This document shows, in pieces, positions 28,042 through 35,608 of a stretch of DNA of 36,613 nucleotides. The notes under the pieces are model-generated. The model had not been told where the DNA came from and searched no databases. It was given only the letters and a program-made list of their open reading frames with translations. The DNA comes from a virus. Location: the IMG/VR virus record IMGVR_UViG_3300020125_000104, positions 1-36,613 of that record; one strand, given 5' to 3'. Position 1 is the first letter of the stretch. Each line of letters opens with the position of its first letter. A program made the translations under genes and the position numbers.

Positions 28042-28506
28042 CTACTCCCTCACCGGCGCTTGCACGAACTTGGCCAGCCGGAACTTCCACGCCTGCCCCT
28101 GTGTCTTTCCATGCCGCCGCATTGTGTCGATGACGCCCTTATATTTCCGCGCCGACGCAACATCTGGCCCGCACAGCAGGAAGCTCATGGCAGAACTGGA
28201 CTCGTAGTCCTCCAATCCCCTGACCTCCTCAACGAGCCCCTCAGGTTCATCGGGTGGTAACCCAACCCAGATAAAAATCTCACCACACTCCCCTAACTTC
28301 AGTAGGCGAAACGACGTGGTGCTGCGTAATTCCCCTGTCTCGCGGAGACGTATGATCCTCAGAATGGTGTCGGCCAACTCCTCCGCAGCATCGGCGCCGG
28401 CTTCCGGGAAGCTTGGAGGCCCAGGCCGATATTCGCGGATCAACTCAGCAACCGTGCGTATCATCGGGTCGTATGGGTCATCATCATTGGGTTCACCGAT
28501 GTCCAT
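28042..28506 (-). CDS. Hypothetical acidic protein downstream of HNH
   Basis: A 154-residue protein from ATG 28506, which shares a base with the HNH stop (TGATG). It is acidic at the N-terminus (DIGEPNDDDPYD), with an ordered C-terminal half (SFRLLKLGECGEIFIWVGLP, ARKYKGVIDTMRRHG). It uses more A/T-ending codons than its neighbours, so it may have arrived with the HNH gene. Function unknown. Confidence 0.66.
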   Translation of the reverse strand: MDIGEPNDDDPYDPMIRTVAELIREYRPGPPSFPEAGADAAEELADTILRIIRLRETGELRSTTSFRLLKLGECGEIFIWVGLPPDEPEGLVEEVRGLEDYESSSAMSFLLCGPDVASARKYKGVIDTMRRHGKTQGQAWKFRLAKFVQAPVRE

Positions 28507-28988
28507 CACTCCATCCTCCGCGCCCTGTAAGCGCGATTGGTGCATGCATTTGAACAGTGCTTCGCCTGTGGATGCTTAGCGGTGAACGACCGTGAGCACA
28601 CATGGCATCGGAGCGTGTGCTGCTGTCGCTTCTTCCACCCCGCCACCAGAATTGCGCTCCTATCAGGATTATCGGCCCAGCCACGCTGCGTATTCACTGC
28701 CGACGGCACCAACTCCAGATGCTCTGGATTAACGCAGCAGCGGACCCGGCATAGGTGATCGACCTGCAAGCTATCGTCGATTGTGCCGTAGTGCAGGCGA
28801 TAGGTCTCGCGGTGTCCTATGACCGTGTGGAAGCGAGGGCCACGCCTGACGCTAATCAGCGCATAGCCTTTGTGGTTCAGCGTCTTGGTCCATAGCCAGC
28901 ACCCAGAGAACGGCACGGGATGGCACCGCTCGAATATCCAATCGAGCGTTGTCGGGTTGGGATGTGGCTCGTGGTCGAGACGACGCAT
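28506..28988 (-). CDS. HNH endonuclease with C-terminal zinc finger
   Basis: A 160-residue protein. The nuclease core is GCWLWTKTLNHKGYALISV followed by HRETYRLHYG and VDHLCRVRCCVNPEHLELV: D77-H78, N87 and H90 supply the HNH/beta-beta-alpha-metal residues and the Cys pair braces the fold (HNH_3 type). A second zinc site is formed by C128, C131, C145 and C149. Such genes are often free-standing homing enzymes, but an HNH beside terminase can also be a packaging partner that stimulates end cleavage. It follows TerL by two bases, which favours the packaging role only weakly. Confidence 0.87.
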   Translation of the reverse strand: MRRLDHEPHPNPTTLDWIFERCHPVPFSGCWLWTKTLNHKGYALISVRRGPRFHTVIGHRETYRLHYGTIDDSLQVDHLCRVRCCVNPEHLELVPSAVNTQRGWADNPDRSAILVAGWKKRQQHTLRCHVCSRSFTAKHPQAKHCSNACTNRAYRARRME

Positions 28989-28990
28989 AC

Positions 28991-30466
28991 CTACTCCATG
29001 CCCCTAATCGACTCGCGCACAGGCGTTTGACTATACAGCCAGCTGTCGCTCGCCGACGACACGCCGAGGCCCCGATCACACAGGCTCAGCAGGAACGCAT
29101 CGGCCCTGTCCGGGCTATGCAGCCCGCGCGTCCGCATCTGTTGCTTCGACTCGATCTGTATCCGCCCATCGCTGGTGAACGCATACCGTGGCGCTACAAG
29201 TTCATCCCGCAGCTGCTCGTCCCGTGGCAGGCGGCAGGCGCGTGATTCCAACCACACCCGCCCGTTGCCCCAGAGTTCGTCTCTGAGCCTGACATACCGG
29301 CCCGTCGTGCTCGGCGCCTCGCCCACGTTGACGCACAACACCGGCAGACCCTGCTCCATGAGCCTGTCCGCCACCCCCGCACCAATGCCAATCGCATCGA
29401 CGCAGATCAGCATCGGCTTGCTCGCAACGCTCAACTCGTATTCGTATTTGATCGCGCCCGCGAGCTGCATGGTGTCCATCTGCTGCCACACCCGCGGCAT
29501 CTCGGTGACGACATACCCACGGCGCTTCACCAGCACCGACGCATCATCGCCAAACCTGGCGACATCCAACCCCCATATCTCCGGCTTGGTCATGTCCAGC
29601 GGCACGTCGCGCTGCATCGCCTGGTCGACGAGTTCCGCGCTGATGAACGTGTCCGAGTCCGCGTTGGGGAACTCACCCAGGCATCGGATGCGATAGGCGT
29701 TGCTGTCCGTGCCGTAGCGCTGCTCGATCTCCTCGATGAACTGCTTCGTAACCCGCGGGCTGTCGGTCGCCGCCACCCGCAGCGTGAACCACCGCCCCCG
29801 CTCGGTGTTCTGCGTCCGCCAGAAGAACCCGGACGATCGCGTCGGATTGCCGATCAGGATCGTCGTCGCACCCGCGCTGCTCATGGCGCCCTGGCCGGCC
29901 TCGAACACCGGTTCCGCAATGCCGCTCGCCTCGTCGCACACCACCAGCACATGCTCGCTGTGAATGCCCTGCATCGCCTCGGGCTGCTCCGGCCGCGCCG
30001 TCCGCGCCGTCACAAACGTCTCGATGTCGGACTTCAGCTTCATGTGGTCGCTCGTCACGTCCCACAGATTGCGCCACAAGTCCGGCAGCACCCGATGCCA
30101 CTTCAACACCTCAGGCCACAACGCATCGAACATCTGCGACGACGTCGGTGCGGTGATGACGCACTTCATCGGCGCCCGCGTGTTGGCGAACCACACGACA
30201 GCCCATGCCGCGAAGCACGTCTTGCCGACGCCGTGCGCTGAGCGGATGGAAATGCGCGTATGGCCACGCGCCAGCGCCCGCAACGCCTCGGCCTGCCATG
30301 GGTCAGGCTCGGCACCAAGCACCTCACGGACGAAGGCGATCGGCGCGCGGTGGTAGCGCGTCATGCACGGGATGAACGGGTTGTCCGCCTTGGCTATGGC
30401 CTCTGCCCAGTTGAATGTGGGCGCTTGCTCGAGGTGCGCTGGCGGATCGGGGACGAAGTTCAGCAC
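28991..30466 (-). CDS. Terminase large subunit (ATPase and nuclease)
   Basis: A 491-residue protein. ATPase domain: Walker A SAHGVGKT at 76-83, Walker B VLVVCDEA at 173-180 with D178/E179, and a coupling motif ILIGNPT near 203-209. Nuclease domain: GLDVARFGDD (D301, D308), CVDAIGIGAG, and SPDRADAF near the C-terminus, the acidic residues of an RNase H-like fold. It pumps DNA into the prohead through portal and cuts the concatemer. The start is GTG 30466, overlapping the upstream gene by seven bases. Confidence 0.93.
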   Translation of the reverse strand: MLNFVPDPPAHLEQAPTFNWAEAIAKADNPFIPCMTRYHRAPIAFVREVLGAEPDPWQAEALRALARGHTRISIRSAHGVGKTCFAAWAVVWFANTRAPMKCVITAPTSSQMFDALWPEVLKWHRVLPDLWRNLWDVTSDHMKLKSDIETFVTARTARPEQPEAMQGIHSEHVLVVCDEASGIAEPVFEAGQGAMSSAGATTILIGNPTRSSGFFWRTQNTERGRWFTLRVAATDSPRVTKQFIEEIEQRYGTDSNAYRIRCLGEFPNADSDTFISAELVDQAMQRDVPLDMTKPEIWGLDVARFGDDASVLVKRRGYVVTEMPRVWQQMDTMQLAGAIKYEYELSVASKPMLICVDAIGIGAGVADRLMEQGLPVLCVNVGEAPSTTGRYVRLRDELWGNGRVWLESRACRLPRDEQLRDELVAPRYAFTSDGRIQIESKQQMRTRGLHSPDRADAFLLSLCDRGLGVSSASDSWLYSQTPVRESIRGME

Positions 30467-30678
30467 GCCGGTATCTCGCTGACGTATTGTGCAATGGCCT
30501 CAAGCACCCCATCCAACTCGGGCTGACGTTCGATATACGGCATGCGACCAATAGCCTCGCTCAACTCGCCAACGAGCGCACATCTTATGTCCAAGTCGGT
30601 GCATCCGATGCAGGCAAAGCGAATGCGCTCGCACAGCGCATCGTAGGCGACATCCTCGATCGCTTGCCGGTCATCCAT
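30460..30678 (-). CDS. Hypothetical small protein between TerS and TerL
   Basis: A 72-residue protein from ATG 30678 (TGATG with the upstream stop; GTG 30681 is the alternative). Helical with three to four Cys (LCERIRFACIGCTDLDIRCA), acidic overall. No family recognised. Its place between the two terminase subunits suggests a packaging accessory. Confidence 0.67.
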   Translation of the reverse strand: MDDRQAIEDVAYDALCERIRFACIGCTDLDIRCALVGELSEAIGRMPYIERQPELDGVLEAIAQYVSEIPAC

Positions 30679-31121
30679 CACTCCCTGGCCGGCTCGAAGA
30701 TGTTCGGCGGCGGTGTAGATACGTTTGTATCTGGCGCTGTCGTTTCATCTGCAACCACCTTCGCCTCGAGCGTTGGCGGTGCGTTGCTTGCGTCGATGGT
30801 AGCGACCAGCCGCGCCGCGAGCAGATGCTGCAGCACGCTCGACGTTGTGCTGTCGCCGTCGACGGTGACTTGCTGCGATGGGCGGCCGAAGCCGCGATCC
30901 AGCAGCGAATTGGCGGCGGCCAAGCGAATGCGAGCGTCGGCCTCGTGTTCCATCAGATCGGCCAAGACCTCAACAGCGCGCTGGCCGTATTGGCGGCAAA
31001 GCTTGCCGACATCAGCCTCGGCTTTGGGCCTGCCATTGGGATTTCCGGACTGTCCTGGCTGCCAAAGCCAGGGGCGGTCTGTTCCGCGATTGTTAGCAGA
31101 TAGCGAGGTTTGCTCGGACAA
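30678..31121 (-). CDS. Putative terminase small subunit (DUF5681-like N-terminus)
   Basis: A 147-residue protein. The N-terminus has WQPGQSGNPNGRPK, the signature of DUF5681-type proteins that sit next to large terminases, followed by a helical region KLCRQYGQRAVEVLADLMEH and RIRLAAANSLLDRGFGRPSQ; the rest is Thr/Ala/Pro-rich. Small terminases choose the packaging site on DNA. The start is TTG at 31121 because GGAGG lies eight bases upstream and no ATG or GTG exists in frame. An 11-codon ORF (ATG 31161, TGA ending 31126) fills the gap from the upstream gene and may couple translation. Confidence 0.72.
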   Translation of the reverse strand: MSEQTSLSANNRGTDRPWLWQPGQSGNPNGRPKAEADVGKLCRQYGQRAVEVLADLMEHEADARIRLAAANSLLDRGFGRPSQQVTVDGDSTTSSVLQHLLAARLVATIDASNAPPTLEAKVVADETTAPDTNVSTPPPNIFEPARE

Positions 31122-31157
31122 CGTCTCAGCCTCCGATGCTAGCGCGCTGTTTTGGGG

Positions 31158-31544
31158 TCATGCGGCCCTCTCGCGTTCAAGGTTGAGGCGGATTCTCTTG
31201 GTGCGCTCGCTTGGCGCGACGGCTTCGCCCCATTTGGCCAGCTCTAGTTCGTCGTCGAAATCGGCGATGACGATGCCGCCCTTGCGGACGAGAAATTCCA
31301 TCATGAGGTCGGTTCTGGCCTGTTCGACGAACGGCCGGTCGTCGTTCATGACCTTGAACTGGAGGATACGGAGTTGGTTTTTGGGTCTGGCGCTGGAGAC
31401 GAGGAAATACCAGCACTTGGTGTCGTGCCCTGGGTCGATATTCCAGACGACGGGACCGAGGGCGACCTGAGGTGCCTTGCCAGCACCCGCGAGGACCTTG
31501 GTGGCGAAGAACCGGATGGCGTGGTCTCGGGTTGGCCGTTCCAT
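31158..31544 (-). CDS. First late-operon gene, hypothetical
   Basis: A 128-residue protein. Beta-rich centre (ALGPVVWNIDPGHDTKCWYF, LRILQFKV) and a basic C-terminal helix (APSERTKRIRLNLERERAA). No family recognised. Its start codon lies inside one of nine GGAACG repeats (minus strand ATGGAACGG), and AGAGGGG gives a ribosome site. It follows the regulatory gap and starts the run of late genes, so it may autoregulate; that is inference. Confidence 0.7.
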   Translation of the reverse strand: MERPTRDHAIRFFATKVLAGAGKAPQVALGPVVWNIDPGHDTKCWYFLVSSARPKNQLRILQFKVMNDDRPFVEQARTDLMMEFLVRKGGIVIADFDDELELAKWGEAVAPSERTKRIRLNLERERAA

Positions 31545-31729
31545 TTGGGGACCCCTCTAGAAAAGACTATGGAACGGTGACAGGAAGAGAAGGGGCTAGT
31601 GCCCCCCTTCCTGTCAAAACCGTTCCGCTGTTTAGTGTGCGTTTTCAGTGCCTTACCTCCTTCCGTTCCAAGCGTTCCATTCGTTACGTTCCGTAATGGA
31701 ACGGATTGTTGCTGGAACGGTCCGGAACG
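31537..31729. repeat. Cluster of nine GGAACG repeats in the early/late gene gap
   Basis: GGAACG occurs on the + strand at 31571, 31698, 31714 and 31724, and as CGTTCC at 31537, 31621, 31664, 31673 and 31687 (first bases given). Chance would give about 0.1 copy in this length. The consensus is close to TGGAACGG. Two copies form a 9-bp inverted repeat, CGTTCCATT (31673-31681) and AATGGAACG (31695-31703). A tight inner pair is CGTTCC (31687-31692) with GGAACG (31698-31703). The gap from 31545 to 31769 holds no gene. Candidates are terminase recognition sites, replication iterons, or operators for the late operon. Confidence 0.8.
31571..31626. repeat. Long hairpin just upstream of the late-operon start
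   Basis: GGAACGGTGACAGGAAG (31571-31587) pairs with CTTCCTGTCA (31607-31616) and CCGTTCC (31620-31626), 17 base pairs with a three-base bulge. Inside it GGGGC (31592-31596) pairs with GCCCC (31601-31605) around a TAGT loop. It would sit in the mRNA leader just before the ribosome site of the first late gene if transcription begins upstream. On the minus strand ATAGTCTTTTCTAG follows, only weakly T-rich, so attenuator or packaging structure are as likely as terminator. Confidence 0.7.
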
Positions 31730-31769
31730 CTGTGTTTGAACCGATTAGACTGTATCTAAATCACAACCT

Positions 31770-32900
31770 CTAGGTGAGTGGATTAAGCACGTCCTCCCCT
31801 TTTTGGGTGAGTTTCCAGGCGTCTCCTTTGCGGACCTGATGCACAAGTTTGTCGGCCACCAGCGACATCAGAGCGCGGTGGACTTTGGACTTTAGCGGTT
31901 GGCCGCCCTCATCGATCCATCCGGCATCCCGTGCGATCTGTGAGAATGGCTGCCCCGGATAATCGCGCAACGCGCGCAGGACGACGTCCTCGTTGGCCAT
32001 GGACTGCTTCGTGTGATTGGCCACCGCCTCCTCTGACATAGGCTCGGCGATGATCGTCATCACCGGCCTGTCGCGTCGATCGTTGAAGCCGGTTGGGACT
32101 GACCGCAACCGGTATCCGAAGGGCGGAAAGTCTGGCCCCCTGATCTTGCCACACCAATGCAGTTCGGCCATGTCTCCCATGGTCTCCGACCAGAGGGAGA
32201 AGTTGCCATCCAGCTCGTTCAGCATGGCCCCTCCGCCACGCGGCAGCAGGTTGCCTCGGGCGGCATTCTTGACCGGGTGTGAGAGCACAATAACGGCAGG
32301 GTTGCCGGGGCATTCGGTGAATGTTCGTAGCAGCCTGGCATAGCCACCCGCCTGGACATTGTCGTTCTCATCGTCTCCTGGGAAGAACGATGCGGCGGTA
32401 TCACCAACGATCAGCACGAACGGTATGCCAAGATCGACGATTTTGGCTTTAAGTGCCTCGGCCTCCTCGTCGTTCATCGGGAAGCTGCCCGGCAGCACGT
32501 AAGGCAGCTGGTCAGGGCGCAGCTTGTAGGCCAGGGCCATACCGAGCATGCGGGCCTTGAGGTCTTCTGGGTTTTCTCCAGCAAGGATCAGGACATTCCC
32601 CTGGCACACCTCAAGATTTCCGATCATCCTGCCGGCTTGAATCATGCATGCGTTGAACAGCCACACAGCGGTCTTGCCATGTCCTGTGAGGGAGGTGCAG
32701 GCATAGAGACGACCGCGTTGAATGATGCCATCGATCAGCCAGTCTGGGGGCACAAAGTCGGCCACGAACTCCCTACCTGAGAGGATGTTGCCGACGTGTG
32801 TTCCGGACGTAGCACTGCCCTTTCTGGCTTTCTCGCGGGCTTCCTCTAGCCTGATGATGTTTTCTTTCTCATCGTCGTAGTTTTGATCGCGGGGCATCAT
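31770..32900 (-). CDS. RepA-like AAA ATPase / replicative helicase loader
   Basis: A 376-residue protein from ATG 32900 (ATGA overlap; ATG 32897 is also possible). Residues 53-78 (DWLIDGIIQRGRLYACTS, Walker A SLTGHGKT at 70-77), then GNVLILAGENPEDLKARMLG, Walker B VLIVGDTA with D167, and sensor-type AVIVLSHPVKN follow the RepA/AAA_25 family of hexameric, RecA-like helicases. The C-terminal 80 residues look like a winged helix (ALRDYPGQPFSQIARDAGWI, VHRALMSLVADKLVHQV). It probably unwinds the phage origin. It is the last gene of the right-arm operon, next to the repeat-rich gap. Confidence 0.85.
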   Translation of the reverse strand: MMPRDQNYDDEKENIIRLEEAREKARKGSATSGTHVGNILSGREFVADFVPPDWLIDGIIQRGRLYACTSLTGHGKTAVWLFNACMIQAGRMIGNLEVCQGNVLILAGENPEDLKARMLGMALAYKLRPDQLPYVLPGSFPMNDEEAEALKAKIVDLGIPFVLIVGDTAASFFPGDDENDNVQAGGYARLLRTFTECPGNPAVIVLSHPVKNAARGNLLPRGGGAMLNELDGNFSLWSETMGDMAELHWCGKIRGPDFPPFGYRLRSVPTGFNDRRDRPVMTIIAEPMSEEAVANHTKQSMANEDVVLRALRDYPGQPFSQIARDAGWIDEGGQPLKSKVHRALMSLVADKLVHQVRKGDAWKLTQKGEDVLNPLT

Positions 32901-33316
32901 GCTGCCCGCCATGCAGCGCGTGCGATCCTGATGGCTCCACCGATAAGGTCGGCGGGCGCTCCGTTTGCCCGGCACAGATCGGTAGCGGCTGCGGTGGCGG
33001 CCCGAATATCGCGTGGATTGTTGGCGAGGGACCTGCGGACAGCGGCTATCATCAGGTTCAGGACGGCCCGGTGGCTTGCGTCGATCCTGGTGATGTTCTC
33101 CTCGAGGAGGACGGCGGCTAGAGCGCGGCAGCTAACCCCACGTATTTTCGCCTGAGTGGCAAGGTGGGCCAGGTGGGTGGCGAGTGCGGCGCGGGCGTCG
33201 TCCTCGCTGTAGCGTCCCCACACCACGGCCAGGGCCATGCGGTTGGCTTCCTCCGCGCCCCAGGCGCGCAGGGCGGCGGTGAAAGTGCGCTCGTCGGTGA
33301 ACAGGGCGACCGTCAT
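32897..33316 (-). CDS. Hypothetical Ala-rich helical protein upstream of helicase
   Basis: A 139-residue protein from ATG 33316, chosen because it forms an ATGA overlap; a TTG at 33382 would add 22 residues. It is Ala/Arg-rich and helical (FTAALRAWGAEEANRMALAV, ATDLCRANGAPADLIGGAIR). It lies in the replication operon, and no family is recognised. Confidence 0.66.
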   Translation of the reverse strand: MTVALFTDERTFTAALRAWGAEEANRMALAVVWGRYSEDDARAALATHLAHLATQAKIRGVSCRALAAVLLEENITRIDASHRAVLNLMIAAVRRSLANNPRDIRAATAAATDLCRANGAPADLIGGAIRIARAAWRAA

Positions 33317-33516
33317 GGCGGCCCTGCCAGGGGTAGCTTGCTGACCGATGAACAAGGCACAGCACTCCTTGACCTGGGCCAAGGGGTCTGCGAAATAGGG
33401 GTTACAGCACTCCTATCTCGCTGGCCTTGGCCAGTTGATACGACTTCGGTTTTCGCCTCGGTGTCCGCCGGGGCGATTTCCGTTTGTAGCGAGTGTGGAA
33501 GAGTCGTGAAAGGCAT
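33313..33516 (-). CDS. Possible small protein with internal repeat
   Basis: A 67-residue frame from ATG 33516 to TGA 33315-33313. Both ends overlap neighbours in the manner usual here (TGATG and ATGA), which is the main support. Its second half has an 11-base direct repeat (ACAGCACTCCT on the + strand at 33359 and 33404), giving RSAV twice, and its composition is weak in coding character. It could be a non-coding linker with repeats instead. Confidence 0.45.
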   Translation of the reverse strand: MPFTTLPHSLQTEIAPADTEAKTEVVSTGQGQRDRSAVTPISQTPWPRSRSAVPCSSVSKLPLAGPP

Positions 33517-33761
33517 CACTGCATCACCTGCCCCGGTATCCGGCCGGTGCGGGCGGCATCCAGCAGCCTCTCCCCGATGGTCTCCGCCACCGCCACGCGG
33601 AAGTCGGCGTCCGCCTCGGCGATCAGCACCGACGCCAGCACGAAGGCGGTCTCAGTGATCGCCTGGAGCCACGGGCAGTTGGCCGCCACCAGCACGTCGA
33701 GCACGTCATCGGGGATGTTGGAGTCGCGGACCCAGCCGTCGGGGAGGGTGACTTCGGTCAT
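33516..33761 (-). CDS. Hypothetical small protein
   Basis: An 81-residue protein from ATG 33761, ATGA overlap with the nuclease gene; a long in-frame extension to 34340 is Arg-rich shadow. Helical (VLDVLVAANCPWLQAITETA, VAVAETIGERLLDAARTGRI) with a Trp-containing start (LPDGWVRDSN). No family recognised. Confidence 0.7.
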   Translation of the reverse strand: MTEVTLPDGWVRDSNIPDDVLDVLVAANCPWLQAITETAFVLASVLIAEADADFRVAVAETIGERLLDAARTGRIPGQVMQ

Positions 33762-34368: not shown

Positions 34369-34985
34369 GCCGCCCGCTCCAGAATGGCGCTCGCGGCGAT
34401 CGACAGCAGCAGATCGCGGAACGGGATCGGCGTTGCGTTCCTGATCTCCGTCTTGCGCTTGCCGCCGGCCATCGCAACCAAACCAACGCGCCGTGCCTTC
34501 TCGTAGCCGTGGCGCTCCAGCATCACAGGGTCGAGGCGCTGCTCGCCCTCACCCCACCGCAGCGACGGCAGATCGCAGCCCACCGCATAGAGCCATGACG
34601 CCTTGCGCGCGCTGTGCCCGTAGAAGCCCTGTTCTACGCGGCAGCACCACCCGCCATGCACGTCCATCTGCCAGCCCTCAGCGGGCGGCCAGGGCAGGCT
34701 GTGGGCATCCCAGGCATGGGAATGCGCCGGATGCTCCAGCACGCCGTGCCAGCGCCGCACAGCGGCCAGGGCCGCGGCAAAACAGCCGCCATCGTCGCCC
34801 TTGGTGAACTGGTGCGGCTTGCGCGGGGAGCCATGCCAGAAGCGTCCCCAACGCTGGCAGGGAGGATGCGCCACGACGGGCCACGGGCCGACATAGGTGC
34901 GGGCATCGCGTGCCTCGCCCCACGGATCGACGCCATCGATCCCGCAGTAGGCGCCGCCCCGCTCGACGAACAACGCGGCGATCAT
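34365..34985 (-). CDS. Methyltransferase-like phage protein (PPCQ motif)
   Basis: A 206-residue protein from ATG 34985 (ATGA overlap; the in-frame extension to 35573 lies over the upstream gene and is rejected). Features: GPWPVVAHPPCQRWGRFW with PPCQ at 41-44, HGVLEHPAHSHAW at 80-92, then GWCCRVEQGFYGHSARKASW, LYAVGCDLPSL. This family recurs in phages and is often annotated as a DNA methyltransferase-like protein; PPCQ resembles motif IV of cytosine-5 enzymes, but a full SAM-binding motif is not evident. The activity is therefore unproven. It follows directly after a GcrA-like regulator. Confidence 0.7.
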   Translation of the reverse strand: MIAALFVERGGAYCGIDGVDPWGEARDARTYVGPWPVVAHPPCQRWGRFWHGSPRKPHQFTKGDDGGCFAAALAAVRRWHGVLEHPAHSHAWDAHSLPWPPAEGWQMDVHGGWCCRVEQGFYGHSARKASWLYAVGCDLPSLRWGEGEQRLDPVMLERHGYEKARRVGLVAMAGGKRKTEIRNATPIPFRDLLLSIAASAILERAA

Positions 34986-35608
34986 GCGGCCTCGCTCAGC
35001 GAGACGCGGCCGACGAACACCCGACGGCGATGCGCGGCGCACCACGAGCCGTGGTCGACGGTGGGGCAGTCGCACTTGGTCCATTCCGGGCCGAACCCCT
35101 CGATCCACTGGCAGCTCGTGACGCTGGAAAAGACCACCGGCCGCACGTGTGGATTCGGGGGCGCGGCCGGTGGCAGCTCCGGTGGCGGGGCAGCCGCCGG
35201 AGGTTGGGGATGAACGATGCGGATCTGCACCTGGGGCTTTAGCGATGGCGCGCGTGGCGTCGACGGCTTGCGTGGCTTCGACGGTCCGGTGCGGATGATC
35301 GGCGACCCGCGCGACGGCAGCCCCCAGCGGGTCCGAAAGCCGACGACGCTGTTTTTGCTGACGCCCAGCCGGAGCCCGATCTGCGCGGTGGTGATGCCGT
35401 CTGCCCATAGGCCAGTGAGGGCGGTGCGGAATTCCGGGGTGACGGCCGAAGGCCTGATCCGTGCTCCCGCGCCCTTGGGGTTGCACACAAACGCCCGCGG
35501 CGCGACTTCGCGGCAGACGTTGCTGCAGTAGCTCTTGCGGTAGCGCGACAGCTCGAGGCCGCAGCCGCCGCACATCCGTCCCGGTATCAGGCTATAGAAC
35601 CCGCTCAT
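34982..35608 (-). CDS. GcrA-like regulator with extra N-terminal zinc motif
   Basis: A 208-residue protein. N-terminal zinc motif: C13, C16, C28, C32 (MCGGCGLELSRYRKSYCSNV). Residues 56-98 (TPEFRTALTGLWADGITTAQ, IGLRLGVSKNSVVGFRTRWG) match the GcrA helix-turn-helix. A Pro/Lys/Arg linker follows, and the C-terminus SSVTSCQWIEGFGPEW, CDCPTVDHGSWCAAHRRRVF carries the GcrA-type Cys/His end (C166, C179, C181, C190, H193). Host GcrA in alphaproteobacteria activates sigma-70 promoters at CcrM-methylated GANTC sites. Phage copies may capture that circuit. The N-terminal Cys4 is not usual for GcrA. Confidence 0.78.
   Translation of the reverse strand: MSGFYSLIPGRMCGGCGLELSRYRKSYCSNVCREVAPRAFVCNPKGAGARIRPSAVTPEFRTALTGLWADGITTAQIGLRLGVSKNSVVGFRTRWGLPSRGSPIIRTGPSKPRKPSTPRAPSLKPQVQIRIVHPQPPAAAPPPELPPAAPPNPHVRPVVFSSVTSCQWIEGFGPEWTKCDCPTVDHGSWCAAHRRRVFVGRVSLSEAA

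Follow-up and report, generated by a model that had tools for sequence, protein, structure and literature searches.

Several replication systems pair a helicase or another initiator with short origin repeats. In the SaPI and SCCmec Cch2 elements the gene of the initiator helicase is immediately followed by a short-iteron origin (PMC7581432, which cites Ubeda 2007), and PICI origins carry two iteron sets around an AT-rich region (PMC6092414). The helicase protein alpha of phage P4 binds origin repeats through a winged helix, and the iterons of RSF1010 are read by a separate protein, RepC (PMC4234260). Geminivirus Rep-iteron pairs use iterons of 5-6 nt that are conserved in position and differ between close relatives (PMC12548392). 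For PLE RepA/ori, replication modules are exchanged and iteron change provides escape from the origin-directed ICP1 nuclease Odn; among Vibrio satellites, such a nuclease directed at the origin seems to be what drives replication-module exchange (PMC8263062). The helicase considered here belongs to AAA_25, a family termed of no known function by one 2022 paper (PMC8965321).

The array beside the helicase gene

The window (the whole analysed stretch of 36,613 nucleotides, IMG/VR virus record IMGVR_UViG_3300020125_000104) holds the following features:

31770..32975, - strand: replicative helicase, AAA_25 / RSF1010-RepA-like RecA fold (start codon uncertain)
31770..32033, - strand: C-terminal winged helix-turn-helix (wHTH), aa 315-401, proposed site reader (AlphaFold)
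31854..31892, - strand: predicted recognition helix, aa 362-374 (Ser363 codon at 31887-31889)
31537..31729, no strand: putative iteron array, nine GGAACG/CGTTCC sites
31627..31663, no strand: A-rich spacer of 37 bp between two site groups, candidate unwinding element
31571..31626, - strand: hairpin (31578-31616), stem lengthened by two flanking inverted sites (MFE -39.6 kcal/mol, z -6.9)
31497..32003, no strand: approximate extent of the putative exchanged cassette, comprising the wHTH codons, the array and some 16 initial codons of the 128-aa gene (evidence: a dS step)
31158..31544, - strand: 128-aa gene without family match, its ATG touching the last iteron
30678..31121, - strand: DUF5681 protein, small-terminase (TerS) candidate by position, not the array binder
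28991..30466, - strand: terminase large subunit (TerL)

The original prediction had counted nine GGAACG hexamers, some in inverted pairs, and both statements hold: nine exact copies lie in 193 bases (~0.11 expected), on the - strand at 31537, 31621, 31664, 31673 and 31687 and on the + strand at 31571, 31698, 31714 and 31724, and the inverted pairs are real. Since the full window contains only 26 GGAACG against 21.6 expected, it is their clustering that is special. In the 350 nt 3' of the helicase no hexamer exceeded five copies in 300 dinucleotide shuffles (nine observed), and among 230-base stretches the array was the densest hexamer cluster of the window, followed by GCC-type repeats. The array had been placed in a gap between early and late genes, with one repeat containing a start codon; this gap is not a divergent early/late switch, because the helicase and the 128-aa gene are co-oriented (- strand), and of the ATG (31544-31542) of the 128-aa gene the first repeat takes in the last base only. 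A sigma-70-type promoter was looked for and not found, in agreement with the earlier reading. An Rfam search returned a sub-threshold chance match only, and a terminator scan returned stems within the array (+ strand) or within the 128-aa gene (- strand, 31429-31412). The cumulative GC skew has its minimum at 30685, near the array, which we set aside as evidence because the genes of this region all run one way.

The usual order of elements in the window and its near relatives is site group, spacer, single site, hairpin and more sites. The spacer is only mildly A+T rich in the window (51%, versus 35% overall); it measures 36-37 bp in L001, L033-L036, L048, L073 and L077, mostly at 51-72% A+T. 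A strong hairpin is present within the array in relatives too, and in L001 one stem pair is altered on both sides (TGACAGG/CCTGTCA to TGGCAGG/CCTGCCA); a terminator and a single-strand initiation site are its candidate roles.

The helicase was assigned to AAA_25 by Pfam and its fold matches RepA/DnaB/RecA, the best structural match being RSF1010 RepA (1nlf), which makes it a RepA-type RecA-fold ATPase. Its wHTH was modelled with a pLDDT of ~90 (85.8 when modelled alone) and matches solved MarR/DtxR-type DNA-binding domains (Z up to 9.8); S363 opens its predicted recognition helix. The fold matches listed do not include the P4 alpha winged helix, an absence that has no bearing in either direction. 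While no primase domain was detected in the window helicase, relatives carry the same helicase-wHTH fused to Prim-Pol and PriCT_2 (L064, L069), to a DnaB N-terminal domain (L039) or to Toprim (weak matches, L040 and L045); the fused partners are replication proteins. Phage and plasmid collections returned distant helicases only (27-30% and ~26% identity, respectively), and no near DNA match to the window was found among phages.

We reason that the array is very probably the replication origin of this phage, its nine hexamers serving as iterons to which the adjacent helicase binds by its C-terminal winged helix, since the pairing of a replicative helicase that carries its own reader domain with iterons next to it reproduces the SaPI Rep-ori/PICI layout. 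The replication iterons that the original prediction had listed among three known parallels are thus strongly supported and can be narrowed to a likely binder, this winged helix. The wHTH would dock helicase subunits onto both site groups, the spacer would then melt and one helicase hexamer would be loaded per strand, while the hairpin may act in priming or in transcription termination.

Arrays beside related helicases

An array with a variable hexamer follows closely after the stop codon of more than 50 related helicase genes (54 arrays in all; median distance from stop to first site 17 nt). For 31 of the 33 loci tested, no more than 3 of 300 shuffles reached the hexamer count; in L072 and L079 the cluster is not within the first 350 nt past the helicase stop, and the array hexamer of L038 is without a GT core. 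A first scan of genome contigs with A2 found nothing, and a second, for L073-type helicases, yielded one new locus only. Wider TerL relatives (L015, L016, L019, L029) likewise encode AAA_25 helicases followed by arrays. Short-repeat arrays also occur in the 3' part of genes (L013 at ~4528, DUF1376; L024 at ~1014, HTH_36; L027 at ~3363), where they lie within coding sequence, beside other gene types.

Because the array precedes the 128-aa gene and the packaging genes, and one of its sites touches a start codon, a different explanation suggests itself, namely that it is an operator through which the helicase wHTH or another phage regulator controls late transcription rather than the start of replication; activation is conceivable given that no sigma-70-type promoter was found. 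The array, however, keeps with the helicase where downstream genes differ (L034, L035, L036; L012-L022), the reader domain is fused to the helicase (and in relatives to primase domains) and the two site groups flank an A-rich spacer. We hence consider an operator unlikely, and found no positive support for the late-gene activator sites proposed originally, while dual use as operator and origin is possible.

In support of the origin reading, the closest relatives kept the array and replaced its sequence. The window aligns at ~92% with contigs L001 and L002 over 30676-33359, and nearly all of their sites occupy the window's positions but read GTTACG/CGTAAC (eight exact copies in L001), which is replacement in place rather than loss. 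Absence of the array from close relatives with the same gene order, the finding that was to count against its significance, therefore holds for GGAACG but not for the array, whose position is kept. The proteins around it are nearly identical (window versus L001: 6 of 491 residues differ in TerL and 1 of 147 in the DUF5681 protein; ATPase domain identity with the closest relatives 99.6%), and the helicase itself has one change in aa 23-325 (ATPase) against 23 in aa 326-401. Between the window and L001, dS amounts to 0.20 for the ATPase part, 0.98 for the wHTH and 0.08 for the 128-aa gene past codon 16, and similar steps separate L033 from L048 (0.21 to 0.87) and L034 from L035 (0.52 to 1.19). 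So steep a step is consistent with exchange of a single block of C-terminal codons plus array, and we infer that both were exchanged as one cassette by recombination; faster local divergence is another possibility. The adjacency of reader and sites would render origin specificity swappable in a single recombination event.

Elsewhere in the window, an HNH endonuclease gene (28506-28988, - strand) between the terminase and portal genes forms a stretch without match in L001, and 33360-33757 has no nucleotide match in L001/L002 although its flanks match (a small accessory gene was exchanged). The protein encoded at 34982-35608 (- strand) has a GcrA-like domain, which suggests an alphaproteobacterial host; the genome relatives of the helicase are mostly from Bradyrhizobium and Mesorhizobium.

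Residue 363 and the hexamer

For every variable helicase column we compared residue sharing with motif sharing and took ATPase identity into account as a control. In 21 viral helicases the top rank among the 269 variable columns went to residue 363 (r 0.495, next 0.27), an r reached in any column by 3 of 5000 label permutations; script-called motifs left it in first place (57 of 2000 permutations gave an equally high value), and over all 42 sequences it was again first (1 of 500), followed by 366. A graded motif-similarity score ranked the neighbouring residue 362 first, and the genome-only scan was not significant, with residue 363 eighth.

Trp or Tyr at 363 accompanies CGTAGC (L034, L033, L042, L036), Ala mostly CGTATC (L035, L048, L043, L044; L045 has Ala but another motif), Ser [CT]GTT in the viral relatives, Gln CGTAAC in L001 (L069 has Gln but not CGTAAC) and Met [CT]GTAAC (L067, L088). 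Close pairs switch residue and site jointly (Ser/Gln in window/L001; Trp/Ala in L033/L048 and L034/L035). A separate set, made up of genome loci from rhizobia and other bacteria, was identified once the rule had been noticed; in it GTT sites accompanied Ser in 8 of 9 cases and other residues in 1 of 12 (p=0.0004; p=0.004 once four near-duplicates were merged). L105, L106 and L114 have KSK and exactly CGTTCC in common at a core identity of 38-46%, and exceptions to the Ser/GTT rule number 4 of 42 tips (L109, L092, L045, L062). A simple protein-DNA recognition code can thus, it appears, be read from sequence alone. The co-variation suggests that the wHTH reads the sites; by itself it does not make them an origin rather than, say, an operator.

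Two further observations concern site specificity. The 350 nt past the helicase end (6098) of L034 hold a mixed array of eight CGTAGC and four CGTATC, possibly caught between two specificities or reflecting relaxed reading. In a second helicase clade (L072-L079) SRYR occurs with TGTCTG (L073, L077) and SRWR with TGTCCG (L075, L078), apparently a parallel code with too few sequences for testing.

Should a separate initiator or repressor encoded elsewhere own the sites, these would co-vary with the helicase tail through linkage; cassette exchange does link wHTH and array, and L001/L002 are short contigs, so that other proteins could differ there. Yet the exchanged cassette contains no other complete coding sequence, and the tie to one recognition-helix residue recurs in distant lineages, which leaves such a protein very improbable. 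That the hexamers are small-terminase (pac/cos) recognition sites, as the TerS-like and TerL genes just downstream had suggested, is contradicted by the near-identity of the DUF5681 protein in L001 despite changed sites and by the 94%-identical TerS of L013 and L016, which adjoin different arrays: site sequence goes with the helicase, not with TerS, and this explanation can be dismissed almost entirely.

The window and known replication systems

An origin read by the helicase's own winged helix would allow the origins of many rhizobial and environmental phages to be predicted from sequence, by giving a function to the arrays beside AAA_25 helicases. It would also supply paired readers and sites as a natural data set for learning and testing a winged-helix recognition code, and a case of origin specificity turning over between nearly identical phages. 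As a broader and only tentative proposal, a RecA-fold (SF4-type) helicase may act as its own sequence-specific initiator with a residue-to-base code, its wHTH-plus-origin cassette being swapped repeatedly under pressure from origin-targeting or origin-sharing rivals (incompatibility, satellites, origin-directed nucleases). Incompatibility between co-infecting phages is a possible driver of site turnover; we know of no PLE/Odn-like antagonist for the phage of the window.

Among the described systems, PLE differs by its RepA_N initiator and ~30-bp iterons, and the geminiviruses are plant ssDNA viruses with a rolling-circle Rep and iterons upstream of its gene. RSF1010 resembles the window in that RepA is the helicase's top fold match and its oriV is an iteron origin with stem-loops, but there RepC reads the iterons, whereas the window helicase appears to read its own. 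P4 alpha likewise combines helicase, winged helix and origin repeats (predicted from sequence in the window), but carries a Toprim primase in the same chain; some relatives of the window helicase do have a Prim-Pol or a weak Toprim match. SaPI/PICI Rep-ori and SCCmec Cch2 have an initiator helicase with a C-terminal dsDNA-binding domain, to which the predicted wHTH of the window would correspond, and like them the window presents sites directly downstream of the helicase gene, in two sets around the spacer. Their helicases, however, are of the DUF927 or D5/Primase_Cterm type and reside in satellites and cassettes, whereas the AAA_25/RepA-like helicase belongs to a phage that has its own TerL, SU10-type portal and capsid instead of using a helper's structural genes. 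On our best reading, by analogy, the system of the window would work in the manner of SaPI/PICI Rep-ori, with a RecA-fold helicase as its basis.
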